Of a stretch of DNA of 64,000 nucleotides, positions 10,401-42,399 are shown piece after piece (position 1 is the stretch's first letter; each line of letters opens with the position of its first letter). Under the pieces are notes generated by a model, which saw only the letters and a list, made by a program, of their open reading frames with translations, was not told where the DNA came from and did no database searches. The position numbers were made by a program, and so were the translations under genes. This stretch comes from Daucus carota subsp. sativus (taxonomy: Eukaryota; Streptophyta; Magnoliopsida; Apiales; Apiaceae). The stretch is from positions 22,538,545-22,602,544 of the forward strand of contig NC_030386.2 in the NCBI RefSeq assembly GCF_001625215.2, in the 5' to 3' direction.

Positions 10401-11774
10401 ACTTAATTGCAGAGCTGTTAACCGTAACACTAATCATTCTAAGAAGAAAATACTTGGAAGGAAGCAGACACATGAAAATGACAAAAAAGTTAGAGGACCT
10501 AATCATATTATCTCATATTGTATTTTATCTATATGTAGTGCTTCAGTGCACTGACCCTGCTTTATTGGAACCGATGTAGGTTGTTCGAGAAGTAAAAGAT
10601 GGTCTCAGCACTGCAACCCCTGCTGCTCCAGATGTGAAAATCAAGAAGCCAAAGCCAACACATCCTAAACCTTTCAGACTAAGGACTGATGTATGCAGGA
10701 ATAATTTCACGTTAATCATAAATGTTTAAAGGAAGACACTTTCTGTTGGTGAATTTGAGAAGGCTGAGATTTATTATTGTTTTTTCAGGAGCGGGGTATT
10801 CTTAAGGAAGCGAACATGGAGAGAAAACTTCACCATCCTCAGATCCAAGCTGCAGCAGTTTCTGGTTTTCGAGGTGGAAACTCACAGAGAAGACGTGGAA
10901 ATGATACCAAAGTTAGTAATTTTCCTCGTATTCTATTTTAGTACTTCTACAAGATAACTTGAGATTAAGTTCTTCATTCATAATAAAAGATGAAAGCTTC
11001 TAATTCTGATAGAACAATTTTACGACAGGAAAATGAAAAATTATCAGCACAAAGCAACGGAAGCAATAATAATTTCGAATGTAATGATAAAGAATCATCA
11101 GAAGAAGTGCAAAAGGCTGCAGCTGTAAGTTCTTGTCACTAGTGTGTAATTTAAAGTTATATTTTTCCATAAATCTGAGGTTTATAAATTATGTTCTACT
11201 TTTAGGATCAACGTATGCAGTTAGTAAAAGTTTGCTCCTTCATTTTAACTTACAGAAGTTGAGCAGAACAGCTCGCCTGCAGACTATACGAGAGCAAGCA
11301 TGTAAAACTCCACAAAGACGTTTCAATTCGGTGCAGAAAAATCCGAATCATACAAGTTTCTCACAAAAAAATATCAACAATAATGAGAATAAAAAACCTG
11401 AAGATTGCATAAGAAAACTAAAATCACCTTCTCTGAGTCAACTTGTTAGGCCTGAAGGGTGAGGATTTTCAACTTGCATAATTGTTGACCTTGTTAAATG
11501 GCATATTCTTCAGAGACTAATTTTAGATATATGTTTTATTATGATTGCTTCAAGTAGGAAGCAGATGAATTCATTGAAACCCCAGGGCAATGGGCTTTGC
11601 GTAATAAAGGAAACATCAAAAGCTAAGTTAGCAGGGAAGCCATGTCAAAGTGGTATGGTCTCATCAACAAAATCAACAACTTCTGCTGCATTCAAGACAT
11701 CATCATCCAGGTGCCCAACTTTTCACACTGTTAGCGTATCCAAGAATCAGGGTTGTGCAAAGAAGATTAAGTAG
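7492..11774 (+). CDS. TPX2-like (TPXL) microtubule-associated protein
   Basis: Eleven exons give an open frame of 786 aa: 7492-7696, 8810-8874, 8948-9009, 9126-10304, 10413-10488, 10580-10690, 10789-10911, 11029-11124, 11206-11229 (an 8-codon micro-exon), 11256-11458 and 11558-11774. The N-terminus is acidic and holds EAPKFVDFT (residues 42-50), resembling the Aurora-binding region of plant TPX2/TPXL proteins. The middle is a long basic, Ser/Lys-rich disordered region. Residues about 555-582 contain HPKPFRLRTD followed by ERGILKEANMERKL, the TPX2-domain signature. TPXL proteins bind microtubules and activate Aurora kinase at the spindle. Orthology within the family is uncertain. The part from 10548 to beyond the gene is duplicated at 24.5 kb. 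Confidence 0.8.
10305..10412 (+). other. Exitron-like intron 4 of TPXL (length divisible by three, no stop)
   Basis: This 108-nt intron starts GTACAA and ends TTGCAG, with a branch-point-like TACTAAC. Its length is a multiple of three and it has no in-frame stop, so retention would add 36 residues rather than truncate the protein. The intronic translation is hydrophobic, unlike its flanks, which favours it being an intron. Confidence 0.6.
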
Positions 11775-12063
11775 GTTATTCCCGTTGTATCCTTGTTGTT
11801 ATCTGTATTAAGTTTTGTTGTTCATATATTGAATTACTGCAAGTCCTCGAAAGGTTTGATCTATAGGCTCATTTTTTCTGTATTATGCTTGGAAGCTTCA
11901 GCTTGAAGAAGAAAGACATGTTGTCGTAGAAAGTATATATAATTTGTTCACTTCCTTCAAATTGTGTAGTGCCTTTTTCAGAATTTCTGTTTGTATGAAC
12001 TTTCTACGAAGGAATGTGTTTGCAAAGGACATCTCAGACCATTTTACATACAGCAAAAAAATA

Positions 12064-12299
12064 CTCCCTCCATCCCAAATTAGATGAGCTAGTTGACTTT
12101 GGGCACGTAACTTAAGGTGCATTGACCGTCTAATTCCGAAATTTATTTTTTTGATTTTTGTTTTGTAAACAAAAATTTCATATTTAAATTTTCATTTGCA
12201 AAAATAAAATTTTAAAAAAAAGTAATGTAGCTATGCGGTCAATGGACTTTATGTGCGTGCCCGAAGTCAACGAGCTCATCTAATTTGGGATGGAGGGAG
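12064..12299. mobile_element. Stowaway-type MITE, 236 bp, TA target duplication
   Basis: The element begins CTCCCTCCATCCC and ends with the inverse (GGGATGGAGGGAG), flanked by TA. The duplicate of this region at about 26040 lacks the element and shows the unfilled site with one TA, giving a natural before/after pair. Confidence 0.92.
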
Positions 12300-12477
12300 T
12301 AATTGATTATATTAAGCCTTTCTAATCTTGTTATATGTATTAAGTTTTGCTTGGAAGCTTCAGCTTGAAGATGACAGTTGGAGCAGAAAGTGAAGTTTAT
12401 AAGTGATAAGTAATTTATGAGTTAATAAGTTAATAAAGTGTTGGGATGTTTGATAAGAGGAAAATGGAAGTTTTGAC

Positions 12478-13050
12478 ATTGAGGAGAAAGTGAATAGATA
12501 TGAACTGTGTCTGGTAGGGAGACTACTGACTCAGAAGAATGTCAATGTTAGAGCAATGAAATCGAAAATTGCTGATGTTTGGCAGCCATTGGGAATCAGC
12601 GTTAAGGAGTTAGATCAAGGTATCTTTGTATTTCAGTTTTTTCACAAGGAGGATCTGCATTGGGTAACAAAGGAAAGGCCTTGGATGTTTGATAATGTTA
12701 TGCTGATCCGGGAGACAATTGCTGCGGGTGAGGATCCTTTGAAGGTTCAGCTATGGCACCTGACCTCCCTATGGACTTTCCGATGGAAGCTGTTGGAAAG
12801 CAGCTTGGGAATTTCTTTGGCGAATTCCTTCAATATGATGCTAAAAACAATGCATCGGGACTGCATGAGAATCAGAATCAGAATTAATGTCAGGAAACCT
12901 CTCAAACGCAAGAAGAAGTTTGTTAAGAAGGATGGTACAGTGTTCACTGTAACATGCTCTTGTGGTATTGTCACTCATACGACTCGGTTCTGCATACAAT
13001 CTGACTCGGGGTATAAACGTTTTTTTTTTCTGAAGTGGGAAAATGCTTAG
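12478..13050 (+). pseudogene. LINE ORF1 (DUF4283-type) fragment, copy 1
   Basis: The open frame reads RYELCLVGRLLTQKNVNVRA and FQFFHKEDLHWVTKERPWMF, the DUF4283 domain found in ORF1 of plant L1-type LINEs and in host proteins derived from it. A zinc-knuckle-like piece with CSCGIVTHTTRFC follows. The segment between the two has lost sequence relative to intact ORF1, and there is no endonuclease or reverse transcriptase next to it. A near-identical copy sits at 26188-26818, in the same position relative to the TPXL duplicate, so it was present before the duplication. Confidence 0.75.
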
Positions 13051-13514
13051 ACAATCTGACTCGGGGTTTTGCACAGAAGACTTGGTAAGCTAGATACATT
13101 GCAATTTTGCAAGAACAAAAACGGATATACTCATGTACCTCATAAACATATGACAGGAAAGTAAAATAACATTTCAGCAAGAATTCAGTTTTAAGATAAC
13201 TCAATCATATACGATATCCAACTGGGGCCAATGGCCTAAGAGGAGATGATGGTGAGTAAAGCGAGGGTCCTTAGTTGATAAATTCAACACTAGATATTAG
13301 AGATGACAATGACTTGGAAACCGATTTAAATCGTAAAAGAGCCTTTACCGGAAGCCACAAGAATGGCTCAGGGTTTCGAGTCGCCATCCAACAACAATAA
13401 CGGGATCCAGTAACCTTATTTTTTTGGGATCATGGATCGAGGACTGGACCTGGACCTGTTGTAATCGGTCTTTTACCCCCACCTGGTTTACACCGATTAC
13501 TTGGTATTGATATA
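13051..13514. other. Spacer, no recognised feature
   Basis: To about 13105 it still matches 26819-26890. The rest is unique sequence with no gene or clear repeat structure. Confidence 0.5.
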
Positions 13515-14405
13515 TACTAGCTTATAACCCGTGCAAGGCACAAGAGCTTTTTAATTATTTATAAATTTTTTAAATATATTGTAAGTGGTGCGAAAGAATT
13601 TAATTTATAAATAATAAATTAAAATTTTTAATTAAATAAAATTTGAAATTATGATTTGTTTGTAAGTCAGAACTATTGTAAAAATATATAGGTTCTACTT
13701 TTCAGACTTGTTTCTGTAAAAAAAAAAAACTGGTTACACATGTTGGATCATCCGACAGTGGCGATGCCGTATAAAATACACCGTCACAGTCATTAATGGT
13801 TTCAAATAAACTATTGTAATCAAGCCATTCCTTTTCTCTCATGTATCATGCTAAAATATTAATTTTTTCTATCAAATTTTAATATATATTGAGTAGAATA
13901 TGTGACGTCAACTTCCATTAGATTTTATTTATAAATGTATTTTATATTAAAATTATTATAATATGATTTAAATTTGGCTTACTAATTTTAAAATATATTA
14001 GATAAAAATAATTTTGTGACAGTGCGATTTATATGATTCTACAATTAAAACTGGTAGGAAATATTTATTTTGGATTAAAATATCTGGCTTATTAATTTTA
14101 AAATATATTAGATAAAAATAATTTTGTGACGGTGCGATTTATATGATTCCACAATTAAAGCTGGTAGGATATATTTATTTCGGATTAAAAAAATCATAAA
14201 CATGTGAAAGACAGAATTTGTTTTGAATTCAGAAAAGGAATTATAAAGATGCAAGTAGATATCAGTTGCCTTATAGAATTAGAAGTTAATTTTGTTCTAA
14301 TCTAACGGTACTTATTTGCTCAATATACGATCCAACGGATAATAAGTTTTTGGACCATGTGACCATGCGACTAAATTAACTCCCTTACGCTTATTATATA
14401 TAAGT
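13515..14405. repeat. AT-rich element of uncertain class (possible Helitron-type remnant)
   Basis: It opens with ACTAGCTTATAACCCGTGC followed by AAGGCAC and closes with TTATTATATATAAGTATA. A similarly organised block lies at 50046-51485. Such CCCGTGC-type ends recur in non-autonomous plant elements, some of them Helitrons. No diagnostic 3' hairpin plus CTRR end was established. Confidence 0.35.
13974..14191. repeat. Tandem duplication of a ~109-bp segment
   Basis: Two adjacent copies share GGCTTAYTAATTTTAAAATA and GACRGTGCGATTTATATGAT, followed by the TTAAARCTGGTAGGA block, with only a few differences. Confidence 0.8.
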
Positions 14406-14406
14406 A

Positions 14407-14684
14407 TATATAAGGTCCGGGTCTTTGGCATTCATATGCCAGGGACCGGTTAAAAAACACACAGATCCAGGGCCGTTGGATGCATATCCAGCGGTCAGGA
14501 TTATATTAAAAGTTTAATATGTCTCGTGTTTTTTTAGCGCTGGACGGGGATTCCCATGTCCAGCGCTACACTGGACATATTAAATTTTTAATATGATCCT
14601 GGCCGCTGGATATGCATCCAACGGCCCAAAATGTGTGTGTTGGTTAAGCGCTCCACGGCCATTAATGGCTGTGGACCGCTACCC
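14407..14684. mobile_element. Fold-back element with long inverted arms and sub-hairpins
   Basis: The arms CCGTTGGATGCATATCCAGC and GCTGGATATGCATCCAACGG are inverted copies, continuing inward through ATCCTG/CAGGAT and ATATTAAA. Each outer end also forms its own hairpin: GGCAT-TCAT-ATGCC on the left and GCCATTAATGGC on the right. A central stem TCCAGCGC/TGGAC is also present. This is a non-coding MITE-like element of unassigned family. Confidence 0.7.
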
Positions 14685-14924
14685 ATATATATATTTCATA
14701 TTTTAATACTTTATTTTATTATCTTTTTGAGGAAAAATTATTTTATTTGTCCCTGAATTATAGTTAGTTTATGATTTAGGTCCTTGAATTTAAAATTTTA
14801 ATTTTTTGATACCTAAACTTTAAAAAAATCTGATAAAAATTATACCGTCAAAATTTGATTAACGGTTGTTAGTGGGCACGTGGAAATTGAAAAAACAATA
14901 ATTAAAAATACGAAAAATCAAAAT

Positions 14925-15180
14925 TTTACGGATTGAAATAAAATTTCAATATGTTAATATACGAGTGATCTTAAGAACACGGGTAGTGAAAATTTCTGAT
15001 TTCGAGTTCACTAACGTATAAAATTACGTATTTTTGATAAGATTTTTCTTCATGTTCTTGGGATTAAAGTGCAAATTTCTATACGTCAGTGAACATGAAA
15101 TCAAAAACTTTCATCACCCGTGTTTTTGAAATCACTCATAGATTAACATATCAAAATTTCACTTCAATCCGTGAAGTTCT
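14925..15180. repeat. Inverted repeat, ~95-bp arms (MITE-like)
   Basis: ACGGATTGAAATAAAATTTC...AACACGGGTAGTG on the left is the imperfect reverse complement of the segment ending ACTTCAATCCGT near 15173. The arms meet around 15060. No ends or target duplication were identified with confidence. Confidence 0.6.
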
Positions 15181-15902
15181 GCTAAAAATCCTGCAATACA
15201 CTTGTTATGTTAATTCTTCATATATCACAGCAAGTGTTTTCGATATGTCTCCATTTTTATATCCAGAGAAACAATAAACTTTAGAGAGTGCCCTGCACGG
15301 GTACTCCTGTCTTAAAAGGATAATCTCTAAATATTCTCCGACATTTAAATGTTGATTTAAAAAACGACATTTTATAAACACATATATCAAAAACTTTATA
15401 ATCATCTTTAAATTCATCATAGCCAAACCAATTTGCCGTCTGATTTTCAAATATTATATCAAGTAATTTATGAAATTTTTTTGATTCTCTAGTCGATGAG
15501 TTCCACAGAAATTATTATGGTCAAATTTGGTCCCCACACCTGTGGTATAGAGGCGCGCCCTTTTGATAAACGGAGGGGCTCGGTCCTTGATGATGTATGA
15601 ATTTTTTAGGATTATTAGGAGTTAAGTAGAGGGGAGTGGTCATCCTTGTTAGTATACACAGGGCACGGTCGGGCTCAGTTCTGTGAAATGGATGTACTAG
15701 CAAATACTTGACATTCCCCCGGGAGATAATATAGAAGACCTACTCTTTCGGGAGATACGAAGATCACCCTTTCGGACGATATAAATACCCAGGCACCCGG
15801 AATCCATTCGGCGTGATCTACAATTCTCAATCTGGTATTTTGTAGGGTAACCCTCGTGTGAGATCTTGAGGTGATCACAATTCTCAGTGAAGGCCCTCCA
15901 AG
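15181..15902. other. Spacer, no gene recognised
   Basis: From about 15530 it is GC-richer than its surroundings, with a TATA-like ATATAAATACC at about 15780 followed by about 120 bp without an ORF. It could be a decayed promoter or terminal-repeat remnant, but no partner repeat is present in the window. Confidence 0.35.
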
Positions 15903-16282
15903 ATAGTATGCAGAATAGTTTGAATCATGTATTCTGATTGGTTAGCTTCATCAAGATGATGTAATTAGATTAGAAGTTAGGTATTAGACCTCAGGACTAG
16001 TCCTTTGCCGGATGGACTAGCATGTCGGAGCCGCCTCAGCAGAAGACTCCTGAAGACTAGTTGATAAGCCACTGTCTTGGCTGTGGACTTATCTCCAAGA
16101 GACCTACCTCTAATCGAATTAGGTCTCCTGGACACCTATAACTATATATGGTTTGATCCTTATAAATCCAGGTTATATAGGCACATTGAAGGGATATCAA
16201 GAGTTGAATCTTTTGTATATATAAAGTTACAAGGTCACTAATTTGTTTGGCATTCTCGATTTAAATATTTAAGCACTTCTAT

Positions 16283-19200
16283 TTTTTTTTGAAAATCAAA
16301 GCGAATAACATTAATATTAATCTTGGAATCCCTTACATCTGAGGCATATGACCCTTACAAATCTCAAATAAGGCCTCACAAAAGAAAAATAGCCTGACTA
16401 GACTACTTTTAATACATCAGCCTACTATTAAAACCAGCATGGCAAAAGAGGGAAGAGAGTCTGAGAACGCACTAGAGACTAAACATAAACAATAACCTAT
16501 TTGGATAGAGGGCTGCATGAGAGGAACTGCGAGGAAGTGGATGGGAGATCGACAACAGCAGCCATGTTCTTGTACATTTCCCTTTTCACAGGAGGCAACC
16601 CCAGTGCCACTAGCACTTCATCAACGCTCAGATTTTAGAACTGGAAAACTAAGAGAACAGACTGGAGTATATGTAACCAAGATATGTCGCATGTTGAAGC
16701 CCTTGGGAAGGAGTGAGGCTACTGTAGAGATCTGATACTCTGCTGTATTGCCTTGAAGACTGCAGAATAAATGTATTAACCACAAGGTTATACAGAGAGG
16801 GCAGCTATATTGTACTTTTAGAGCTAGATGTCATGATGAGATTACAACCGCTACAAATTTGAAAAAAACACTAAAACCCGGGAACACACTCAAACTAAAC
16901 CGGGTTTAGAAGTAATGGGCCAAAACAGTTAAGATAAGACAGAAGTAGCCCACTTAGAGAACATAGCTGATCTGTTAAGACCAATAATGGCTAATTGATT
17001 AGCAGAGTCATTTAAGTCTCCCGGAATGTGTTTGATGCAGACAGAACCATTTAAAATGGAATCAACATTGAAGTTTGGTAGTAATAGAGGGAAATCATGC
17101 TGAATGCCTCTGTAGAAAGCATTAAGGTAACTGTAGAATCCGTACAAATCACAATCTTTTTGTTTTGAAAACCCTTCAAGTGAATTACGTATAATAGATG
17201 CATAATTGCTGCCACCTCCGCTTCGTGATTGTTCCATGCTTCGAAAGGGCCAGAGAAAGTATACAGAGTTGTACCTGAACTATGAACAATTTGTCCACCA
17301 ATTCCCCCACCTACTGTTCCATCCACCCTCAGGTTCCACGCACCATCAGCTGTGCAGACAAACTCATAAGCTTCACAAAGCGAGTTCAAAAATTGCCGGG
17401 AGAGTTTATAATGCATTGCAGACAGAATTCCAACCGGGTTCAAATGCCACTCCGGACTATAACCTATGGTTAGAATTTTGGCTGCCTCACCCCATTGAGC
17501 AACTCTAACAAGAATTAATTCTCTAATATTCGATTCCCTTAGTTTATTGTGCTGGAAGATCCATTTATTGCGAGCCAACCAAATCGTCCAAAGTGTACGA
17601 CGACCACCAGCTTCCAAACTCGATTAATGTGACGTTGTTTTTGAAGATTCAACAACCAAAAAATTGAGAAACTGTGCATTCTAAGGAAGATACTCCGTTT
17701 AATCCACCAACTTGCCACAAAGTTCCACGCCCAGGATGCAACCTCGCACTTCCAGAAAACATGTTCCAGAGTTTCAGCACCCTTATTGCAGTACATGCAT
17801 TCAGAACTAGTGCCCGGAATCCTCCTGCTTAAAAATTCTTTTGTTGGCAGAATTTCAGAACAGATTTTCCATAAAAAAAACTTTTATTTTTGGTGGAGCC
17901 TGTATCGACCAAATCGACTGCCAATTAAAATCAGAGCGTATAGAAGAAAGCGGCGAGTAAAAAGCATCATATCCTTTCCTGACAGTGTAAGGGCCATTAA
18001 CCGGTTTCCATACCAAGACATCCCTCCTATTGGATAGAACTAGTGAAGAGAGAAGAGTATCTAAAGAAGAAACTTGCTCTCGGAGGTGATGCTCTGGGGC
18101 TTGTGTCCACATAGACACCCCAGGAATAATGGAGCACCAAAGTTTATAGTAAACAGCTACCACTACTGATTTGTGAGCAGACAAAGCGTATAGCTCCGGA
18201 TAAATATACTGAAGAGATAAGTCATTTAGCCAAATATCTTCCCAGAAGAAGGCTTGATTCCCATCTTGCAGATTCCATCTAAAATTTGAGCGATTAGTGA
18301 CGAGATCACATTTTCTGTCTAGCTTAACAGAAATAATGTTTCGGACTATGGGGGAACAAGATTTCTGATTAATCAAGGCCATATCAAAATTCCAGATTGG
18401 CCCATACTTCTCTGACAAAATCTTATTCCACAAAGCTGACCTATCGGAGTAAGCCCGCCACCACCATTTTTCTAGAAGTGCCAAATTTCGACCAGAAATT
18501 GATTTTACTCCCAGCCCTCCAAACTTTTTAGATGCACAGACTGTTTCCCAGTTTGTAAGATGTAGCTTCCTTTGTTGACCTTCTTTATGGCCCCAGAAAA
18601 AATTCCTCCGGAGCTGCTCAATCTGGTCAGTCACCACTTTGGAAAGTTTATACAAGTTAAACCAATAAACGGGCACGCTATCAATGACTGATTTAAGCAA
18701 GACAATCTTTCCTGCTAGTGAGACGTGTTCTGCTTGTAAAGATTGTATTCTTCTCTTGATTTTTTCCACCAAAGGTTGCTAAAAAACTTTCATCCTCGGG
18801 TTATCTCTAATGGAGGCCCCCAAGTAAATGAGACTACTCCCACCAATTTTACAACCTAGTACCTCTGCCCAGGCTGCGATAGAAGATTGTTCGTGGTTGA
18901 AACCATATAGGCTACTCTTCTGGAAATTTATTTTCAAGCCCGAGAGGATCTGAAAACACTGTAATACATGTTTGATTCCCACTATTGAATGCAGCCCCCC
19001 ATCTCAGAATAGAAGTACGTCGTCTGCGAATTGAAGATGAGAGAGCTTCAGAGAACAGTGAGGAAGGGAGACCCCTTTGAACACCTCTAGAGCTTCGGCT
19101 TTATGAATAAAATGAGAAAGCACCTCGCCCACTAAATTAAAAATCAAAGGAGAAAGAGGATCTCCTTGCCGAAGTCCCCGAGTAAGAGCGAATTCCTGAG

Positions 19201-19845
19201 TGGGAGAGCCGTTTACAAGAACAGATATTCGGGTAGATTCGAAAGTTGCTTTGATCCATTTGACCCATTTTGATAGGAAAATTCATACGGCCAAAAACTT
19301 CGTACACGAAATGCCACTGGACACAGTCGAAAGCATTTTCGAAATCTAATTTGAGAATAAGACTAGACGATTTCCTTGATTTTAACGCATCCACAAACTC
19401 ATTTGCGAGAATGATACTATCTGATATTTGACGTCCTTTGATAAACGCTGATTGTGTGGGGCCAACTAAGCCGGGCATGAAGTTTTTTAATCTTCGAGCA
19501 AGCACTTTTGTTAGTAATTTCATCAGAGCATTCATCAAACTAATCGGTCGAAACTCAGCAGGAGTGGTAGCAGATCCTGACTTAAGGATAAGTGCTATAA
19601 ACGAAGAGTTTAAACCTGTAGGGATTTGGCCCGTCTCATGAAAAAGCTGGAAGAAAAGAAGAACTTCTGTTTTGATTGTTGGCCAGATGTGTGAAAGGAC
19701 TCCCGCATTGATGCCATCCGGTCCGGGAGCTTTTGACTTATCCGTCTCATGTAGAGCTTCTTCAATTTCTAAAAGAGTAAATTCATTAACACTGGCTATT
19801 TTGTTGCATTCATCTAGACCTTGAAACTCTCCCAGGGGCAACTCG
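16283..19845 (-). mobile_element. 5'-truncated L1-type LINE
   Basis: The poly-A end appears as a T-run at the left edge. On the minus strand the domains run in order. The reverse transcriptase lies at about 19841-18780 (KAPGPDGINAGV, PISLMNALMKLLTKVLA, FADD box near 19025). The zf-RVT zinc-binding region is at about 18770-17540 (GAETLEHVFWKCEVASWAW). A C-terminal RNase H-like domain is at about 17620-16930 (CTDSTV, NDSANQLA). The endonuclease and ORF1 are missing, and the RT frame is broken by several frameshifts, for example near 19265 and 18780. It is dead. The copy C repeat shows the uninterrupted site. Confidence 0.92.
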
Positions 19846-21557
19846 AAATTTTATTTGGTTTTCGGTAAAACCAAAATAAAAATTTTGGTCAGGAGTTTTG
19901 TTTTTTTTAGCTGCTAGTTTGGTTTTTTTGAGCTGCTAGTTTGGTTTTAGAAGGCTGGTGTTTTGGTTTAGTTGTACTGATCTTAAGAGTGGAGCAAAGT
20001 TACGGTTTTGGTGATTTTGTGTTTGTGGAGATAAATATTTGTATAGATTTTGAGTTGGATAGTTTGGTTAAATTTGTTTTTGTTATTTGCTTCTAACGAG
20101 TTTGTTCGTAGAGGTATTTTTCTTATAGATGAGTTCGCCTTTATAAATTCTTCTAGTTATATATAATTTAACAAGGATTTGATATACTCACAAGGGGATG
20201 ACAAATAGTGTTAAAAATGTATTTCATAGTTAGGCATTTTCTTAATAATTTTCATAGTCACAACTGTTTTAGTAACATTACTTATTGCAAGTTGGAGTGA
20301 CTAATCATGGTATCAATGCCGGAGATGTTGAAGCTCTTGACAACATAGTTGCCTGTTGAAAAGGAAGTGGTTACAAAACTGTCACTCCTTCACTCGAATA
20401 TGTTATTTCCGTTTATAATATATAGTTAAGTATTCCATTATTAGTTTGTAGTATCAATGGAGTTTACCATTCTTGCTATCTAGTTGCATATTCAATGGTT
20501 GTGACATTAAAATTCAAGTTACACTGATTGGCTATTGCTTTTTACTGTAAGAAAAAGGTCAACCAGCCCACCTACCGCCTCCAACCCACCTAGTCTTGAT
20601 TTTTCTGGTGCCCGCGGCCCACTTGTTGTCGTCGCCGGCCCAGCTCTTCATGTGTGGGCTTATGTAGCCCATTTTCAAGTGTGGCCCCGTATAGACTCAT
20701 GATACATTTTGTGACAATTATAAATAATCATATGTAACATTTCAATTATCATTTTAGTCCAACCCCTTGTTTATCATCTACCCATACCCTTCCCATCTCT
20801 TTATATCTGAAACCCTAAAATATATGCCGCCGACTTTCTCACTTTTGTGAAAACGATCTATCAATCCTACTACTGAATTCAATTGTTATAAACACAAATG
20901 ATCCTCATAAATTAAAGTCTCAAAAACACTGCCACACCTAAAATCGCATTGTTATATCTTGATATGTGCTTGATTTGTTTGCTAGTTTCACGATTTTTTT
21001 GAATCTTCATTCTTTTATGCCCGTAAAATGACGATCTCCCAATTTGGGTAGATAAATCGGTAAGTTATTTTTCAAACCGATTTGTGGTATATTACGTTTG
21101 GATCTGATTAAAAAATTTCATCTTACATCATACATGTATTAAGTTTGAGGTTCTAAAGTCCTCGGATGCAGATCAAATTTTATGTTTTGGATAAACAAAA
21201 ACTCGTGTTGCTAATTTAATAAGTAATATTTTGTAGTTGTTTATACTCTTAAGTTTCAATAACTTTGAAGTCCTAAAACCTTTGGATGCAAATCAAATTT
21301 CATATATAAGGTAAACGGAAATTCGTATTGCTGATTTGATATATAATATTTTTTTTGATTGTTTATGCTCTCTAATTTCAGTTGTGATCCTCTATATATT
21401 TGTTGGTGGTCCAATTATGTCACCAACAATTATTTGGCACATTTCATATTGTTGTTACTCTTTTAATTTGGTCCATATAATATTTTGTTACAGAATTTAT
21501 AATCAAATTTAGATTATTTAATTTTTTTTAATAAATATTTTATACTTACAGTAAACA
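19846..21557. other. 5' region of RING-H2 pseudogene copy A
   Basis: No coding sequence is visible. A promoter-like block lies near 20796-20820 (CTCTTTATATC followed by AAACCCTAAAA, a TATA-like sequence plus telo-box), conserved in copies B and C. It is followed by about 700 bp ending in a 3'-splice-like ACTTACAG just before the coding remnant, suggesting an intron in the 5' UTR of the ancestral gene. Confidence 0.5.
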
Positions 21558-21901
21558 ATGAAGAAAGTGCTTCCAGACTTTTCCGGAGTTATGACTATTC
21601 ATGATGCTTCTTCTTCTTCTCCCAAACCAATTTTAAAGACTTCTCTCGCTCACTCAAAGTCAAGAGAAGTACCTCTGCTCTTTTTAAACATGTTGTGAAA
21701 GACATCTGTCCAGTTTGCTTGGAAGACTCTGATGTCAACCAAAAAATGTGCTTACTCAACTGCACTCACATGTTTCATGAAAATTGCATTGTTCAATGAC
21801 TTCGTTAGAAGAATACGTGCCCTTTGTGCCGCTGCAAACTATACGAGGATGAAGATCTTTTGATTGTAGAAGAATGTCTAACAGGGAGAGCATTCTCTTG
21901 A
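21558..21901 (+). pseudogene. RING-H2 finger pseudogene, copy A
   Basis: After MKKVLPDFSGVM the frame shifts, and the RING-H2 domain is then readable as ICPVCLEDSDV, CLLNCTHMFHENCIVQ, KNTCPLCRCKLYEDED. All eight zinc ligands are present in C-x2-C-x14-C-x-H-x2-H-x2-C-x10-C-x2-C spacing. A TGA replaces what is normally the conserved Trp after IVQ, and there is a TAG three codons later. The ancestral gene was probably an E3 ubiquitin ligase. The TGA is shared with copies B and C, so inactivation preceded copying; the TAG is private to this copy. Confidence 0.85.
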
Positions 21902-23013
21902 TATCTTGGTTAATCGAAAATTATATTGTATAGCCTTGTACTTGATATAAGTATGTCAAGAATAGTTTCATTATCCTATGTAATAATATAAATTTTGAGA
22001 AGCTGTGTATGTTGAATGATGGATAATATTTTCATGTGTGTACTATGTAAATTCTATATGATCGAAATAGGTTTATAAATCATGGAAATTTGGAGTGTGT
22101 TCTACTTGCGACTTCTTGATTTTGCAGGGCAAATTTTGCCTTTTTTCAGAACAAACGGAATGATTTAAATTTTCTTAGGATTTTTTTTACCAAAGTGCTT
22201 TGGGCAATTGCTATAAGAAAGCACATTGAATTGAGTTGGAATTTAAGATCATTATGCAGACCTACTTATCCTAAATAGCTTTGGTAGCTAGGAAATCTTT
22301 GAAGTTCGGTAGCTTTACTCTTTTTTACTATCTTTTTCTTAATTTCTGTGAAAATCAAAAGATTTACATAAAATGGAATGGAGGGAATATATAACTTTTG
22401 AGCGTAATTGGATACCAACATTAACTAGCATGATCAGATAGTCCACAGAGCTTACTTATACTCTAGATTGTCGTTCCCGATCCTCACCTCAAGATTTATT
22501 AGCCTATATACTAATTTGTTAGGTATATAAATCTTATAATCTTATAATTTTTTTAAGAAAAAATTATGCAACTTCTACTTACTTACGAATCAAACACAAG
22601 CACTCTTACTTACGAATCAAACACAAGCACTCTTACTCAAAAATAAATACAGTCAAAACTCTTAAAAACACATGGAAAGGTTTAAAGAACCAGAATACTC
22701 CTCAACTGTTAGGATCCACTTGGAAGTTTCCAAGAACTTATCTTTCCGTGTACTTTATCCATATGTTATTTCAACACGTTAGTACACTTAATTACTATAA
22801 TAATTTAAGATTGGAGGTTGTAATCAAAGACTTCCGACAACTTTTGATAAGTCAGTCAACTCTCTGATCACTTACCCCGATATGTAGTTTTCATGATATA
22901 TAGATTTATTTTCTGTTAATTTTGTGTTGTTGAATTTGAATAGATTGCTCCAACAATAAGCTTGATCCTCACCGTCAGTTATCTTTTCTTCATCCTCCAT
23001 TACCTCTGTTCTA
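21902..23013. other. Spacer between RING-H2 pseudogene and kinase pseudogene (unit 1)
   Basis: It matches 28884-29930 in unit 2. A private tandem duplication of about 29 bp is visible near 22585-22635 (ACGAATCAAACACAAGCACTC twice). No gene is seen. Confidence 0.65.
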
Positions 23014-23535
23014 ATGACAGAGCATTCAAAAGGGGTGGTGATTCTCATCACTTTATTAAATATCTTGGTTTATAAGCTCCAGAAACTCCAAGAAGCTCAG
23101 CAAAAAAAGCGCTTACCGCTGTCTATTAGACAATTATGCCGTCGATTTTCATTTCATGACATCAGATCAGCGACAAACAACTTGGCCTGTTTGGAAACCT
23201 GGATTTCATTTGAAATCCAGGATTTGATCAAATAACTTGTTTGGGAATTTAGAGTTGGATTTCATTTCAAATCCAGACATTCAAATGTTAGTATAAATCT
23301 GAGGATTTGAAATGACAACTCAAATCCTGTCATTTGAAATCCATCATTTGAAATGAAATGCATGTTTCCAAACGGCCCCTTAAAGAAGAATTGGTGATCG
23401 GTAAAGGTGGATTTGGAATTGTTTACAAAGGTATCATTGAAGAGAGAATTGTTGCTGTAAAGCGGTCAAAAATCATGTCTAAGCAAGGAAGCAAGGAGTT
23501 TATGACCGAAATTAAGATGCTTTCGCAGTTTCAGC
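23014..23535 (+). pseudogene. Truncated receptor-like kinase pseudogene (inner copy)
   Basis: It matches the first ~105 codons of the kinase at 29931-31271: MTEHSKGVVILITLLNILVY, the RFSFHDIRSATNN segment, then after an insertion EELVIGKGGFGIVYKG, VAVKRSK and IKMLSQFQH. It is interrupted by a MITE at 23184-23378 and stops at the duplication junction, so the catalytic loop and everything after it are absent. It cannot encode an active kinase. Confidence 0.93.
23184..23378. mobile_element. 195-bp MITE in the kinase pseudogene, CTT target duplication
   Basis: The ends are GGCCTGTTTGGAAAC and GTTTCCAAACGGCCC, near-perfect inverses, flanked on both sides by CTT. The intact kinase at 30098 shows the empty site. 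Three-base duplication fits PIF/Harbinger-like elements, though CTT is not their usual TWA target. Confidence 0.88.
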
Positions 23536-23541
23536 ACTGAC

Positions 23542-24522
23542 CATGGCCGGCTCTAACTAAAAGCAAATCAAGATGGGGCTCAGGGCTCCCAAACAAAAAA
23601 AGACCCCAAATTTTTAAAACTTCTTTATATATATGTATATAAAAATATCGGTCTTTCTAATGTGTGCCCAAACGCACACAATAAGCACCAACTTTAAAAT
23701 GCCTTGTTTCAATTGGTGGAATTGATGTGAATGCAGGGGAGCCATTTACATTAATTATCCATTCACCAATCAAAAACTAGTATTCTCATGAGAGTTAGTG
23801 ATTATTGTGTGCCCGTGGGCACACCATAGAAAATTCGTAAAAATATTAGTATTTGTTTTGTTAAAAAATTTATTGAAAACAAAGTTTTATCAAACCCTTT
23901 TAAATTTTTTAATATATTTAAATAATATAAAAAAACTGCGTTATTATTCAAAAATGAGAATAATTAATTAATTTATCATTTTTTGAAAGAATTTTGAAAT
24001 ATAAATGATATTTGTTATGTTACTATAAATAATATTTATATAAATATTTGATGAAAAAAATTAATATATATATATATCATGAATAATTGTGATTGAAAAT
24101 GTTATTACATTTATCAATATGTATCATGTATGAAATGTATAGAATAATTTGTCTAGTTAAATGTAATATCAAATTTATTAAAATAAATATTAATTATTAA
24201 CATAAAAGTTACTAACGTCTTTTTTTTCTTTTTGTCTGTATAAATGATAAAATATTAAGAACATAAAATTACTCCTTCAACTTGTGTTTTCATTTTCACT
24301 CCTCTGTGTGCATTTGTTCATAACTCTTCTTCTAATTAAGCTACTAAATTATTATAACCTTTTTTTTTTTAACCATTTCATCTTCATCATTCAACATCTA
24401 ATATTGAGATAAGGATCTTTTATTAATAAATTCATATTATATTAAAAAGTTTTATATATAAATATGCAAGGGTTTCATTTTTAAGTTTTGCTTAGGGTCT
24501 CAAATTTGGTTGAGCGGCCCTG
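23542..24522. mobile_element. hAT-type non-autonomous element at the duplication junction
   Basis: The ends CATGGCCGGCTC and GAGCGGCCCTG are inverted (consensus CAGGGCCGGCTC). The flanks GCACTGAC and ACACTGAC form an 8-bp target duplication with one mismatch. The interior is AT-rich and has no transposase. The insertion sits exactly on the join between truncated kinase and truncated TPXL. Confidence 0.85.
23655..23836. mobile_element. MITE nested in the hAT element
   Basis: Arms of about 40 bp, TGTGTGCCCAAACGCACACA and TGTGTGCCCGTGGGCACACC with flanks, are imperfect inverted copies. A similar fold is seen at 47945-48085. Confidence 0.6.
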
Positions 24523-25757
24523 ACACTGACCCTGCTTTATTGGAACCGATGTAGGTTGTTCGAGAAGTAAAAGATGGTCTCAGCACTGCAACCCCTGCTG
24601 CTCCAGATGTGAAAATCAAGAAGCCAAAGTCAACACATCCTAAACCTTTCAGACTAAGGACTGATGTATGCAGAAATAATTCCACCTTAATCGTAAATGT
24701 TTAAAGGAAGGCACTTTCTGTTGGTGAATTGGAGAAGGCTAAGATTTATTATTGTTTTTTCAGGAGCGGGGTATTCTTAAGGAAGCGAACATGGAGAGAA
24801 AACTTCACCATCCTCAGATCCAAGCTGCAGCAGTTTCTGGTTTTCGAGGTGGAAACTCACAGAGAAGACGTGGAAATGATACCAAAGTTAGTAATTTTCC
24901 TCGTATTCTATTTTAGTACTTCTACAAGATAACTTGAGATTAAGTTCTTCATTCATAATAAAAGATGAAAGCTTCTAATTTTGATAGAACAATTTTATGA
25001 CAGGAAAATGAAAAATTATCAGCACAAAGCAACGGAAGCAATAATAATTTCGAATGTAATGTTAAAGAATCATCAGAAGAAGTGCAAAAGGCTGCAGCTG
25101 TAAGTTCTTGTCACTAGTGTGTAATTTAAAGTTATATTTTTCCATAAATCTGAGGTTTATAAATTATGTTCTACTTTAACTCTTTAAGGATCAACGTATG
25201 CAACTAGTAAAAGTTTGCTCCTTTATTTTAACTTACAGAAGTTGAGCAGAACAGCTCGCCTGCAGACTATACGAGAGCAAGCATGTAAAACTCCACAAAG
25301 ACGTTTCAATTCGGTGCAGAAAAATCCGAATCATACAAGTTTCTCACAAAAAGATATCAACAATAATGAGAATAAAAAACCTGAGGATTGCACAAGAAAA
25401 CTAAAATCACCTTCTCTGAGTCAACTTGTTAGGCCTGAAGGGTGAGGATTTTCAACTTGCATAATTGTTGACCTTGTTAAATGGCATATTCTTCAGAGAC
25501 TAATTTTAGATATATGTTTTATTATGATTGCTTCAAGTAGGAAGCAGATGAATTCATTGAAACCCCAGGGCAATGGGCTCTGCGTAATAAAGGAAACATC
25601 AAAAGCTAAGTTAGCAGGGAAGCCATGTCAAAGTGGTATGGTCTCATCAACAAAATCAGCAACTTCTGCTGCATTCAAGACATCATCATCCAGGTGCCCA
25701 ACTTTTCACACTGTTAGCGTATCCAAGAATCAGGGTTGTGCAAAGAAGATTAAGTAG
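24523..25757 (+). pseudogene. 5'-truncated duplicate of TPXL (last six exons)
   Basis: This is a copy of 10548-11774 starting within intron 5 of TPXL. Exons 6-11 are all recognisable with their splice sites: the TPX2 signature exons, the 8-codon micro-exon (with a changed polypyrimidine/acceptor context, TTTAAG) and the terminal exon ending at TAG 25757. In the last exon I count 2 differences in 217 nt, and in the preceding exon 3 in 203 nt, so the duplication is recent. The promoter, the start codon and the first five exons are missing. It is at most a transcribed fragment. Confidence 0.9.
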
Positions 25758-26187
25758 GTTATTCCCGTTGTATCCTTGTTGTTATCTGTATTAAGTTTTG
25801 TTGTTCATATATTGAATTACTGCAAGTCCTCGAAAGGTTTGATCTTATAGGCTCAATTTTTCTGTATTATGCTTGGAAGCTTCAGCTTGAAGAAGAAAGA
25901 CATGTTGTCGTAGAAAGTATATATAATTTGTTCACTTCCTTCAGATTGTGTAGTGCCTTTTTCAGAATTTCTGTTTGTATGAACTTTCTACGAAAGAATG
26001 TGTTGCAAAGGACATCTCAGACCATTTTACATACAGCAAAAAAATAATTGATTATATTAAGCCTTTGTAATCTTGTTATATGTATTAAGTTTTGCTTGGA
26101 AGCTTCAGCTTGAAGATGACAGTTGGAGCAGAAAGTGAAGTCTATAAGTGATACTCTAAGTAATTTATGAGTTAATAAGTTAATAAA

Positions 26188-26818
26188 GTGTTGGGATGTT
26201 TTGATAAGAGGAAAATGGAAGTTCGGACATTTGAGGAGAAAGTGAATAGATATGAACTGTGTCTGGTAGGGAGACTACTGACTCAGAAGAATGTCAATGT
26301 TAGAGCAATGAAATCGAAAATTGCTGATGTTTGGCAGCCATTGGGAATCAGCATTAAGGAGTTAGATCAAGGTATCTTTGTATTTCAGTTTTTTCACAAG
26401 GAGGATCTGCATTGGGTAACAAAGGAAAGGCCTTGGATGTTTGATAATGTTATGCTGATCCGGGAGACAATTGCTGCGGGTGAGGATCCTTTGAAGGTTC
26501 AGCTGTGGCACCTGACCTCCCTATGGACTTTCCGATGGAAGCTGTTGGAAAGCAGCTTGGGAATTTCTTTGGCGAATTCCTTCAATATGGTGCTAAAAAC
26601 AATGCATCGGGACTGCATGAGAATCAGAATCAGAATTGATGTCAGGGAACCTCTCAAACGCAAGAAGAAGTTTGTTAAGGATGGTACAGTGTTCACTGCA
26701 ACATGCAAGGCTGGGAGAATTTTGCTTTTCTTGTGGCATGGTCACTCATACGGATCGATTCTGCAGACAATCTGACTCGGGGTATAAACGTTTTATATTT
26801 AAAGTGGGCAAATGCTAG
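26188..26818 (+). pseudogene. LINE ORF1 (DUF4283-type) fragment, copy 2
   Basis: This is the duplicate of the fragment at 12478-13050, opening EEKVNRYELCLVGRLLTQKN. A frame change after the KFVKDGTVF region puts the zinc knuckle (ARLGEFCFSCGMVTHTDRFC) in another frame. This copy keeps more of the knuckle than copy 1, which has a deletion there. Confidence 0.75.
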
Positions 26819-27021
26819 ACAATCTGACTCGGGGTTTTGCACAGAAGACTTGGTAAGCTGGATACATTGCAATTTTGCAAGAACAAAAAAGGATATATAA
26901 TTACTTTCACTAGCAAAACAAACTAAGCCGTGACAATAACCCACTATAGATTCAATAATACCTTTATGATCCAACTTAATAGTCGTGGGAACGGGCTCAT
27001 TAAGCAGAGAATATACAGAAC
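26819..27021. other. Unit 2 novel joint
   Basis: To about 26890 it matches 13051-13105. The rest, to 27021, has no counterpart in unit 1 or in copy C. It replaces the roughly 6.9 kb that unit 1 carries between the LINE ORF1 fragment and the RING-H2 repeat. Confidence 0.65.
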
Positions 27022-28559
27022 AAGTCCAGTAGAGGTATTTGTGGAGATAAATATTTGTATAGATTTTGAGTTAGATAGTTTGGTTAATTTGTTTTCGTTA
27101 TTTGCCTCTAACGAGTTTGTTCATAGAGGTATTTTTTTAGAGATGAGTTCGTCTTTATAAATTCTTCTAATTATATATAATTTAACGAGGATTTGATATA
27201 CTCATAGGAGGATGACAAATAGTGTTAAAAATGTATTTCATAGTTAGGCATTTTCTTAATCACTTTCATAGTTACAATTGTTTTAATAACATTATTTATT
27301 GCAAGTTGAAGTGACTAATTATGGTATCAATGCCGGAGATGTTGAAACTCTTGATAAGATAGTTTCCTGTTGAAAAGGAAGTGGTTACAAAACGATCACT
27401 CCATCACTCGAATATGTTATTTTCACTCGAATATGTTATTTTCGTTTATAATATGTAGTTTAGTATTCCATTATTAGTTTGTAGTATCAATGGAGTTTAC
27501 CATTCTTGCTATCTAGTTGCATATTGAATGATTGTGACATTAAAATTCAAGTTACACGGATTGGCTATTGTTTTTTACCGTAAGAAAAAGGTCAACTAGC
27601 CCACCTACCGCCTCCAATCCACCTAGTCTTGATTTTTGTGGTGCCCACGGCCCATTTGTTGTCATCGCCGGCCCAGCTCTTCATGTGTGGGCCTATGTAG
27701 ACCCATTTTCAAGTGTGGGCGCTTATAGACTCATGATACATTTTGTGACAATTATAAATAATCATATGTAACATTTCAATTATCATTTCAGTCCAACCTC
27801 TTTTTTATCATCTACCCATACCCCTTCCCATCTCTTTATATCTGAAACCCTATAATATATGCCGCCGTCTTTCTCACTTTTGTGAAAACGATCTATCAAG
27901 CTTACTACCGAATTCAATTGTTATAAACACAACTGATCCTCATAAATTAAAGTCTCAGAAACACTGCCACACTTAAAATCGCATTGTTATATCTTGATAT
28001 ATGCTTGATTTGTTTGCTAGTTTTACGATTTTTTGAATCTTCATTCTTTTATGCCTGTGAAATGACGATCTCCCAATTTGAATAAATAAATCGGTAACTT
28101 ATTTTTCAAACCGATTTGTGGTATAATACATGATACATGTATTAAGTTTGAGTTTCTAAAATCTTCGGATGCAGATCAAATTTCATGTTTTGGGTAACCA
28201 AGAATTCGTATTGCTAATTTGATAAATAATATTTTGTAGTTGATTATACTCTTTAGTTCAATAACTTTGAAGTCCTAAAGTCTTTGGATGCAAATCAAAT
28301 TTCATATATAAGGTAAACGGAAATTCGTATTGCTGATTTGATATATAATATTTTTTTTAATTGTTTATGCTCTCTAATTTTGATTGTGATCTTTTATATA
28401 TTTGTTGGTGGTCCAGTTATGTCACCAACAATTATTTGGCACATTTCATATTGTTGTTACTCTTTTAATTTGGTCCATGTAATATTTTGTTACAGAATTT
28501 CTAATCAAATTTAGATTATTTAATTTTTTTTAATAAATATTTTATACTTACAGTAAACA

Positions 28560-28883
28560 ATGAAGAAAGTGCTTCCAGACTTCTCCGGAGTTATCATGAC
28601 TATTCATGATGCTACTTCCTGTTCTCCCAAACCAATTTTAAAGACTTCTCTCGCTCACTCAAAGTCAAGAGAAGTACCTCTGCTCTTTTCAAACATGTTG
28701 TGAAAGACATCTGTCCAGTTTGCCGACTTTGATGTCAACCAAAAAATTTGCTTACTCAACTGCAATCACATGTTTCATGAAAATTGCATTGTTCAATGAC
28801 TTCGTCAGAAGAATATGTGCTCTTTGTGCCGCTGCAAACTATACGAGGATGAAGATCCTTTGATTGTGAGAGCATTCTCTTGA
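28560..28883 (+). pseudogene. RING-H2 finger pseudogene, copy B
   Basis: Same structure as copy A, with the early frame change and the shared TGA after IVQ. A private deletion removes the codons between CPVC and DFDVNQ, and a second deletion removes the EECLTG codons near the end. The later TAG of copy A is CAG here. It is non-functional. Confidence 0.83.
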
Positions 28884-29930
28884 TATCTTGGTTAATTGAA
28901 AATCATATTGTATAGCTCTGTACTTGATATAAGCATGTCAAGTATAGTCTTATGATCCTATGTAATAATATAAATTTCGAGAAGCTGTGTATTTTGAATG
29001 ATGGATATTTGTACTATGTAAATTCTATATGATCAAAATAGGTTTATAAATCATGAAAATTTGGAGTGTATTCTACTTGTGACTTCTTGATTTTGCAGGG
29101 CAAATTTTACCTTTTTCGGAACAAAAAGAATGATTTAAATTTTCTTAGGATTTTTTTTACCGAAATGCTCTGGGTAATTGCTATAAGAAAGCACATTGAA
29201 TTGAGTTGGAGTTTAAGATCATTATGCAGATCTACTTATTCTAAATAGTTTTGGTAGCTAGGAAACTTTGAAGTTTGGTAGCGTTACTCTTTTTTACTAT
29301 ATTTTTCTTAATTTCTGTGAAAATCAAAAGATTTACATAAAATGGAATGGAAGGAATATATAACTTTTGAGGGTAATTGGATACCAACATTAATTAGCAT
29401 GATCGGATAGTCCACAGAGCTTACTTATACTCTGACTAGTCCATAGAGCTTACTTATACTCTAGACTGTCATTCCATATCTTCACCTGGAGATTTATTAG
29501 CCTATATACTAATTTGTTAGGTATATAAGTCTTATAACTTTTTAAGAAAAAACTATGCAACTTCTACTTACATACGAATCAAACACAAGCATTCTTACTC
29601 AAAAATAAATACAGTCAAAACTCTTAAAAATACATGAAAAAAGTTAAAGAGTCGGGAACTGTTAGGATCCACTTGGCAGTTTCCAAGAATTTATCTTTCC
29701 GTGTACTTTATCCATATGTTATTTCAACACGTTGGTACACTTAATTATAATAATTTAAGATTGGAGGTTGTAATCAAAGACTTCCGACAACTTTTGGTAA
29801 GTCAGTCAACTCCCTGATCACTTACCCGATCTGTAGTTTTCATGATATATAGAGTATCTTTATTTTCTGTTATTTTTGTGTTGTTGAATTTGAATAGATT
29901 ACTCCAACTATAAGCTTGATCCTTGTTCCA
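28884..29930. other. Upstream region of the intact receptor-like kinase
   Basis: It matches 21902-23013. A private duplication of CAGAGCTTACTTATACTCT occurs near 29413-29463. The sequence just before the ATG (ITPTISLILVP in frame, back to TTGAATAG) is open and could be the end of an exon after a 3' splice site, but no ectodomain-coding exon is found upstream. Confidence 0.55.
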
Positions 29931-31271
29931 ATGACAGAGCATTCGAAAGGGGTGGTGATTCTCATCACTTTATTAAATATCTTGGTTTACAAGCTCCAGA
30001 AACTCCAAGAAGCTCAGCAAAAAAGGCGCTTACCGCTGTCTATTAGACATTTATGCCGTCGATTTTCATTTCATGACATCAGATCAGCGACAAACAACTT
30101 TAAGGAAGAATTGGTGATCGGAAAAGGTGGATTTGGAATTGTTTACAAAGGTATCATTGAAGAGAGGATTGTTGCTGTAAAGCGGTCAAAATCCATGTCC
30201 AAGCAAGGAAGCAAGGAGTTTCTGACCGAAATTAAGATGCTTTCCCAGTTTCAACACAGCCATTTAGTCTCTCTCATTGGTTATTGCGACGACAGTGAGG
30301 AGATGATACTGGTTTATGAATATATGCCTGCAGGAAGCCTTGCTGATCATTTGCATAAGAGGGTGAGAAGAGGCGACACGATTCTGCCTTCTTTGACATG
30401 GGAGCAGCGCCTCAAGATTTGCATTGGGGTAGCCCATGGATTGGACTACCTTCACACGGGTACAAGCATTGATGAACGGGTGATTCACAGAGATGTGAAG
30501 ACTGCAAACATTCTGCTTGATGAGAATTTAGCAGCTAAACTTTCGGACTTTGGATTGTCCAAAACAGGTCCAGCAAATCAGACGTGTACTTATGTGAGCA
30601 CCCGCGTCAAGGGCACCCACGGTTATCTGGATCCATACTATGTGGCAACTCACAGACTGACCAGGAAAACAGATGTCTATGCATTTGGTGTAGTGTTGTT
30701 TGAGGTTTTGTGTGGAAGACCGGCTGTGGATAGGAGTTTGGATGAAGAGCAAATTAGTTTAGCTGGATGGGCACAACAGTGCTTCGAAGAGGGGCTTTTG
30801 GAGCAGATAATTGACACCAATATCAAGGCAAGCATTTCTTCTGATTCCTTGAACACATTTGTTGATGTTGCTATTAAGTGTTTACTTATGCAACCGAAGC
30901 TGCGTCCTACTATGGCTGAAATTGTGGTCGGTCTTGAGTCTGCATTGGCATTGCAAGAAAAGAGTACATCCTATTGTTTAGTTGAAATAATGCCTCTTGA
31001 TTACACTTCGCAAGAAGATGTACATTCTTCAACACTGGTGGTGAAAAATACTGACCATAAACGAGAACACACTGCACAAGTGATTGTAAATGTTTCTGAT
31101 GCTTGGTATCTCAACAAGCAGTCTTCTGCTAGGACGACATTCACAAAAAGGGTTGTTGCTCTTTTCTCGGTTACAGCTCGAGTGTTCTCAGGTATACCTA
31201 AACCTTTCATGTATCAATATGTAGGCATATCTTACCTTGAGAAAGCGGTAATACTGGTTTGTGTCAATTAG
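29931..31271 (+). CDS. CrRLK1L/FERONIA-like protein kinase lacking an ectodomain
   Basis: Single open frame of 446 aa from MTEHSKGV. Residues 7-20 (GVVILITLLNILVY) resemble a membrane segment. The kinase domain spans about 58-345, with glycine loop GKGGFG (64-69), VAVK lysine 84, HRDVKTANILL (186-196) and DFG (206-208), and TSTRVKGTHGYLDP-like activation loop features. The FERONIA-like LTRKTDVYAFGVVLFEVLCG region follows, then KLRPTMAEI. The usual DPEY of subdomain VIII reads DPYY (235-238). There is no malectin-like extracellular region, so this is either a kinase with a minimal N-terminus or the last exon of a gene whose earlier exons were lost. It is the outer, complete copy of the duplicated kinase; the inner copy stops at codon ~108. 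Confidence 0.82.
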   Translation: MTEHSKGVVILITLLNILVYKLQKLQEAQQKRRLPLSIRHLCRRFSFHDIRSATNNFKEELVIGKGGFGIVYKGIIEERIVAVKRSKSMSKQGSKEFLTEIKMLSQFQHSHLVSLIGYCDDSEEMILVYEYMPAGSLADHLHKRVRRGDTILPSLTWEQRLKICIGVAHGLDYLHTGTSIDERVIHRDVKTANILLDENLAAKLSDFGLSKTGPANQTCTYVSTRVKGTHGYLDPYYVATHRLTRKTDVYAFGVVLFEVLCGRPAVDRSLDEEQISLAGWAQQCFEEGLLEQIIDTNIKASISSDSLNTFVDVAIKCLLMQPKLRPTMAEIVVGLESALALQEKSTSYCLVEIMPLDYTSQEDVHSSTLVVKNTDHKREHTAQVIVNVSDAWYLNKQSSARTTFTKRVVALFSVTARVFSGIPKPFMYQYVGISYLEKAVILVCVN

Positions 31272-38506: not shown

Positions 38507-38539
38507 TTTTTATACGTGTCTTTATCCTATAATGCTAGA

Positions 38540-38945
38540 GTTTTTAGTTTTTACAGCTTTTGACCTGCTTGTTCATTATATTCTGCCAACCCAGTCAGTA
38601 AAGAAAATTTGATGCTATGCCCTAAATATCACAAATTAGTGGCACGCCAAACATACCACAATTTAGGAGGATGGGTCCAATAAACTGCATCACCAAACCA
38701 GGGCCTAGTCAGGGAGTCTGAATACTGGCCAGCAGGATCATATTAAAATCTACTACTGTAAACATATTTTTTCAGTGGTGTTAAAACTGAGATTCCTCAC
38801 TATATTTTAGAGGCTCGGTTGAAGCCGCTGCAAATACATTGGCTTCGTTCCCATTACTAATAAATAATAATAAACTAGAAATTCACCGAGGATCATATTA
38901 CTCTTAAGAAGTCTATAATCATAAACACCTGCAACTTAATTTACA
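38540..38945. repeat. Copy of the RLK7-like gene's 3' flank (left)
   Basis: It matches 41880-42275 in direct orientation with scattered differences and small indels (shared CAACCCAGTCAGTAAAGAA, GGATCATATTAAAATCTACT). The right copy abuts the RLK7-like gene, so this left one is the displaced duplicate. Confidence 0.85.
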
Positions 38946-39580
38946 AATAGTATGCAGAATGGTTTGAATCATGTATTCTGATTGGTTAGCTTCATCAAGA
39001 TGATGTACCTAGATTAGGAGTTAGGTATCGGACCTCAGGACTAGTTCTTTGCCGGATGGACTAGCATGTTGGAGCCGCCTTAGCAGAAGACTCTTGAAGA
39101 CTTTAGAAGACTAGTTGATAAGCCACTGTTTTGGCGTGGGTTTATCTCCAAGAGACCTACCTCTAATCGAATTAGGTCTCCTGGACACCTATAACTATGT
39201 ATGGTTTGATCTTTATAAATACAGGGTACATAGGCACATTGAAGGGATATCAAGAGTTGAATCTTTCGTACAAGATCACTAATTGTTTGGTATTATCGAT
39301 TTAAATATTTAAACACGTTCTATTAAATTTTGGTTTGCGATAAAACCAAAATAAAATTTTTGGTCAGGAGTTTTGGTTTTTTTGAGCTGCTAGTTTGGTT
39401 TTGGAATGCTGGTATTTTGGTTTAGTTGTACTGATCTTTAGAGTGGAGTAGAGGTTTTGGTGCTTTTGTGTTTGTGGAGATAAATATTTGAATAGATTTT
39501 GAGTTAGATAGATTGGTTAATTTGTTTTCGTTATTTGCCTCTAACGAGTTTGTTCGTCTTTAAATTCTTCTAGTTATATA

Positions 39581-42275: not shown

Positions 42276-42399
42276 TCCTGTATCAACCGTCTGTGTATAA
42301 AATGATCTCCTATATTATCCATTTATCAGCTACTGCAAAAGCCATTCAGTACATTCCTTAGTATTGCAATGCTATGCAATACCAGAACTCTGCAATTTC

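Follow-up and report, generated by a model that had tools for sequence, protein, structure and literature searches.

The window analysed here, the whole stretch of 64,000 nucleotides from Daucus carota subsp. sativus (assembly GCF_001625215.2, contig NC_030386.2, forward-strand positions 22,538,545 to 22,602,544), contains a protein kinase gene, a gene named TPXL, a fragment of open reading frame 1 (ORF1) of a long interspersed nuclear element (LINE) and a RING-H2 remnant, arranged as a tandem duplication with a hAT-type transposon on its junction. The kinase, the LINE ORF1 fragment (DUF4283, E=2.8e-9) and the RING-H2 remnant at 21605-21796 (zf-RING_11, E=2.9e-8) matched Pfam families in agreement with their labels in the initial annotation, whereas the TPXL pieces tried gave no Pfam match, and TPXL is the name used in that annotation. 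The kinase frame at 29931-31271 showed no Pfam domain besides PK_Tyr_Ser-Thr. All positions refer to the first base of the window.

Self comparison of the window revealed two head-to-tail direct copies, copy 1 at 10549-23537 and copy 2 at 24524-30257 (units 1 and 2). Two blocks of each copy pair in direct orientation, block I at 10549-13129 with 24524-26897 and block II at 20019-23537 with 27035-30257. The adjacent copies thus show the identical order and orientation that characterize a tandem duplication. The outer copies of TPXL and of the kinase gene are intact and the inner copies are both severed at one junction; this arrangement had been proposed in the initial annotation, and the paired order and the breakpoints found by self comparison agree with it. 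Unit 2 begins, as proposed, in TPXL intron 5 of the initial gene model, just upstream of the end of that intron, with homology starting at 24524 instead of 24523. The end of unit 1 was also correctly placed in the kinase, but the cut, at 23537, lies at about codon 109 and not at codon 105. Unit 2 had been extended to 31271; homology between the copies stops at 30257 within the kinase, and 30258-31271 lies outside the duplicated unit. The duplication itself is real, and the best account of the layout is a single tandem duplication by an event of the end-joining or template-switch type.

Positions of the features of the duplicated locus and its surroundings.
Feature	Position	Strand	Basis or remark
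Copy 1, low-divergence part: TPXL intron 5, terminal exons and most of LINE ORF1 (DUF4283) fragment	10549..12955	+	pairs with 24524-26706; 33/2165 mismatches
Insertion in copy 1, absent from copy 2, Stowaway-like ends	12062-12299	.	alignment
Copy 1, tail of contiguous block I, high divergence	12956..13129	+	pairs with ~26707-26897; 12/171 mismatches
Copy 1 only: ~900 bp repeat (13512-14411) and LINE	13130..20018	.	no counterpart in copy 2; 15903-16291 and 19854-20018 also in third copy
LINE in copy 1	~16292-19853	-	labelled by eye from open reading frames
Copy 1, block II: RING-H2 remnant and kinase start, severed at join	20019..23537	+	183/3165 mismatches to copy 2
Miniature inverted-repeat transposable element (MITE) splitting copy 1 kinase fragment, Harbinger/Tourist-like ends	23184..23379	.	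197-base gap in copy 2 alignment
Left target-site copy GCACTGAC, overlying kinase-TPXL join	23534..23541	+	element flank comparison
Non-autonomous hAT-type transposon with nested, partly palindromic insertion (~23640-23840)	23542..24522	.	dispersed-family relatives
Right target-site copy ACACTGAC	24523..24530	+	element flank comparison
Copy 2 of block I: TPXL 3' part without 5' part, and LINE ORF1 fragment	24524..26897	+	self comparison, alignment
Unmatched 137 bases of copy 2, in place of copy 1 13130-20018	26898..27034	.	genome search
Copy 2 of block II, ending within intact kinase	27035..30257	+	self comparison, alignment
Complete kinase frame, 446 aa	29931..31271	+	PK_Tyr_Ser-Thr E=8e-48, residues 62-333 (Pfam)
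R1, left flank of third copy, partner of 41872-42276	38539..38951	+	self comparison, genome search
Third, partial copy of 15903-22139 / 27035-29108 sequence, without LINE and kinase	38947..41703	+	self comparison
R2, beyond 3' end of minus-strand leucine-rich repeat (LRR) receptor kinase; partner of R1	41872..42276	+	self comparison, Pfam

The initial annotation had considered the duplication as young, with a uniform divergence of about 1-2%, and had named uniformity along the paired segments as a check and very unequal divergence along them as a refutation. One divergence along the whole unit, which is expected in the absence of later exchange, was not observed, and the divergence found is indeed very unequal. 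Block I contains 45 mismatches in 2336 aligned bases and block II 183 in 3165, and a likelihood scan located a change point at 12886 (2-logL support 12810-12966), with 1.4% divergence to its left (30/2098) and 5.8% to its right (198/3403). The step improved the log-likelihood by 36.5, compared with a maximum of 9.1 in shuffled data, and none of 300 shuffles reached it. Divergence of 1-2% is confined to 10549-12955 (33/2165); the part up to 13129 and block II show 12/171 and 183/3165. The single tandem duplication remains the best account of the layout, but a young age with uniform divergence is not supported. A further split left of 12886 was not significant, as 77 of 300 shuffles reached it, and the best split to the right gained only 2.96 log units. 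The tail of block I (7%) resembles block II (Fisher 0.50) and differs from the head of its own block (Fisher 5.5e-5), and the step sits in a block whose pairing continues without interruption to 13129 in copy 1 and 26897 in copy 2. Because the step lies within this contiguous block and not at a block edge, it points to later gene conversion and does not overturn the single duplication; one older duplication with a later conversion tract fits these data best, and the locus is best explained as a tandem duplication plus exchange.

Selection or methylation as causes of the unequal divergence were ruled out: the low-divergence part includes the LINE ORF1 fragment (10/652 mismatches), and the contrast survives the removal of CG/CHG transitions, with 4.6% in block II versus 1.5% in block I. 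This latter contrast is understated, because 11 of the mismatches counted for block I come from unpaired bases ahead of 10549. Judged from sequence divergence, the duplication is older than a first look suggests, with about 1% in the TPXL exons compared to near 6% across most of the unit. The Kimura two-parameter (K80) distance of block II is 0.061. The substitution rate in Arabidopsis is about 7e-9 per site per year, and at this rate 0.061 would correspond to about 4 million years and 0.014 to about 1 million, figures that serve as guides only.

The two copies do not meet directly. They are separated by 981 bases (23542-24522) that match a dispersed family of the same genome, which was searched over 441 Mb in 11 contigs. 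From 1195 first-look candidates 40 were scored and 30 given as loci; together with a further locus, L002, 31 were examined, and as one of these (L009) is the window copy itself, 30 relatives were available. Both ends are present in 24 of the 30, and 20 of these 24 are flanked in one common register by 8-base repeats without any mismatch. Among the 20 are L012 and L014, which have an identical target and may go back to a single insertion. The other four show 1, 2, 5 and 6 flank mismatches, and the remaining six relatives do not show both ends. The family ends are of the CAGGGCCGGCTC type; the junction copy ends with CATGGCCGGCTC and CAGGGCCG, and its flanks GCACTGAC and ACACTGAC agree at 7 of 8 bases in the family register. 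Non-autonomous hAT elements have CAGGG-type ends and an 8-base target duplication. With terminal repeats and 8-base target duplications present in the family (7/8 in the junction copy), we take it to belong to the hAT class, and the 981-base element is expected to be non-autonomous. Filler DNA was ruled out as an origin of these bases, since the relatives in the genome share the ends. A shorter family member of 563 bases (target ATTCCACT) is located at 654-1216 of locus L002, where it precedes the kinase match of a paralogue on C1 by about 110 bases.

At the join itself, kinase and TPXL share only the three bases CAC at 23535-23537: the sequence is TTTCAACACAGCC in the kinase, GTGCACTGACCC in the TPXL intron and TTTCAGCACTGAC on the left side of the element, and the TGAC between CAC and the element is not kinase sequence. 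Of the few shared bases of the GCAC/CACA type described earlier, only CAC is found, and it is covered by the hAT flanks. Because these flanks overlie the join, the fusion most likely preceded the insertion. The base before the join codon is A in the kinase and in six of eight distinct paralogue copies, and G in the other two (before CAC or CAT); the eight derive from 11 loci, three of which are second views of the same copies. The right flank of the element starts with A as in the kinase, and the unit 1 intron has G at that base, so that insertion after fusion is slightly favoured; this clue is a single base, and either order requires one change.

A third, partial copy lies downstream of both units. 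It matches copy 1 at 15903-16291, 19854-20109, 20162-21592 and 21725-22139, and the parts of these segments that are present in copy 2. At 1389 sites comparable in all three copies (27176-28598 in copy 2), which cover part of the third copy, the third copy differs from unit 2 at 56 and from unit 1 at 88, compared with 81 differences between the two units. The third copy is nearer to unit 2 and therefore probably came from it, before unit 2 lost its counterpart of 13130-20018. The third copy shares with unit 2 an identical run of 220 bases, a length reached in 6 of 2000 permutations, which suggests that conversion recurs at this locus. At the left join of the third copy with R1, AGATAGT (7 bases) is common to both parents. 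Apart from R2, the only other long copy, the genome search with R1 found a match of 54 bases that belongs to the third copy and one of 59 bases on C3. A long terminal repeat (LTR) element as the source of the flanking direct repeats was ruled out, since R1 has only this one other long copy. The whole segment 38539-42276, a 2.8 kb piece between two 0.4 kb direct copies with 7 shared bases, looks like a template-switch insertion.

Some sequences are private to one copy. The repeat at 13512-14411 matches numerous sites across the genome at up to 98% identity and is apparently a recent insertion. The element at 23184-23379 is presumably a Harbinger/Tourist-like MITE, judged from its ends. At the deletion point of copy 2, the genome search with 26898-27034 found only this segment itself; a 57-aa minus-strand frame in it gave no Pfam match and resembles F-box-associated proteins by eye only. 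For 28655-28867 of block II, in the area of the RING remnant, relatives of 83-84% identity occur at three places on C6 (25.92-25.96 Mb), and may represent the parent RING genes. As an outgroup for the whole unit, the kinase paralogues of other chromosomes were discarded, because among the matches listed their alignments start only near the kinase start codon. Further upstream, at 1296-7061, the window contains additional direct paired segments, for example 1641-3037 with 4320-5705 (91%).

Taken together, these data are consistent with the following history. One tandem duplication would have joined kinase codon ~109 to the upstream TPXL intron 5 through CAC, either by end joining or by replication template switching. 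Part of the inner segment would then have been copied a third time, to 39-41.7 kb and most likely from unit 2, and a non-autonomous hAT element would have landed across the junction, duplicating 8 bases of its target. Subsequently, copy 2 would have lost the counterpart of 13130-20018 and copy 1 gained the LINE and MITEs. Finally, gene conversion between the copies may have overwritten about 2.3 kb from the junction to ~12.9 kb, resetting this part to 1.4% while the rest kept 5.8%. We consider this account as a whole probable. The paired segments, the bases at the join, the ends and flanks of the hAT element, the divergence step and the third copy are observed directly, and the order of the events, gene conversion as the source of the step and the type of repair are deduced from them. 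Several points weigh against the account. The flanks of the junction element differ at one of eight bases, and a register shifted by one base gives a perfect 8-base match that does not fit the family ends. The complete octamer GCACTGAC also occurs where unit 1 begins (10548-10555), and the flanks alone are therefore no proof that the fusion came first. The microhomology is weak, because by our estimate about 5% of random joins would share three or more bases by accident. The low-divergence part contains a cluster of eight mismatches at 10655-10766, where a split was not significant (77/300). By chance, a transposon would fall exactly on the join in only about 0.5% of cases, according to our own post hoc estimate (roughly 7 insertions x ~10 positions over 13-14 kb). 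The order of events and the direction of conversion are read from this one genome and are not proved by it.

The low chance of an insertion exactly on the join is the reason for retaining, at a low probability, a coupled origin of insertion and duplication, either by a form of alternative transposition in which the target copies still match, or by an attraction of hAT elements to fresh repair junctions. A duplication made by the transposon itself, through reversed-ends (alternative) transposition of hAT elements as in maize Ac, would explain a hAT-type element exactly at the junction, and de novo as well as natural maize cases carry hAT elements at such junctions (PMC3744419). In the natural cases described there, the first element has matching 8-base repeats and the second one non-matching flank; one of the three is somewhat different in structure, so the flank pattern is not absolute. 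At our locus the start of unit 1 (10549) is without an element, the flanks of the junction element match at 7 of 8 bases, and TGAC is not kinase sequence. The structure diagnostic of reversed-ends transposition is thus not seen, and we regard this origin as very improbable. The element could also have been present first, in TPXL intron 5 of one haplotype, followed by an exchange with an element-free haplotype and a break at the element edge. The complete octamer at the start of unit 1 would allow the intron alone to have been the target, but a break within ~8 bases of the element and an element-free, footprint-free first unit would be required, and the right flank carries the A of the kinase and of most paralogues instead of the intronic G, a difference of one base that either order explains with one change. 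We regard this sequence of events as very improbable, on a par with the coupled origin.

Two ages without conversion would also result if the RING/kinase block had been duplicated first and a TPXL 3' segment had been set before it by a second, younger duplication. Two divergence classes are indeed seen, and the third copy of the inner block without TPXL demonstrates that this block can be copied alone. However, the step at ~12886 lies inside a block contiguous to 13129/26897, the last 171 sites of which are already at 7%, and the second duplication would need to end exactly where the older copy resumed; we consider this alternative unlikely. The most improbable of all is an assembly artefact with two haplotypes placed end to end, the other refutation named in the initial annotation. 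A divergence of 5.8% with private transposons could also exist between haplotypes, but the window contains no N, the third copy has its own, intermediate distances, and the transposon with matching flanks across the join, together with 5.8% divergence and insertions private to copy 1, argues for a genuine duplication.

The locus is a clear worked case in which the divergence of a few exons misdates a tandem duplication (~1% in the TPXL exons, near 6% in most of the unit). The transposon across the join provides a natural marker of event order and speaks for a genuine junction. Should further duplication junctions of this genome carry hAT elements as well, it would become possible to test directly whether hAT activity and duplication are linked.

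Compared with known systems, the junction element has the same ends as its hAT relatives in the genome, but is diverged from them (72-77% in the longest matches); it also has a T in place of G at base 3, a single mismatch between its flanks and a nested insertion. The maize Ac reversed-ends duplications (PMC3744419) are likewise direct tandem duplications with a hAT element at their junction, but the matching junction flanks and the element-free start of the first unit found here do not agree with them. The sharp divergence step in a contiguous paired block resembles interlocus gene conversion between tandem duplicates, except that the low-divergence tract extends to the end of homology at the junction. 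With direct adjacent copies, whole outer and truncated inner genes and short shared bases at the join, the locus resembles tandem (segmental) gene duplications of plants and differs from them in the transposon over the junction and the apparent later homogenisation of part of the unit. It is a plant tandem duplication of the ordinary kind, with a history that can be read, an underestimated age and an instructive junction.

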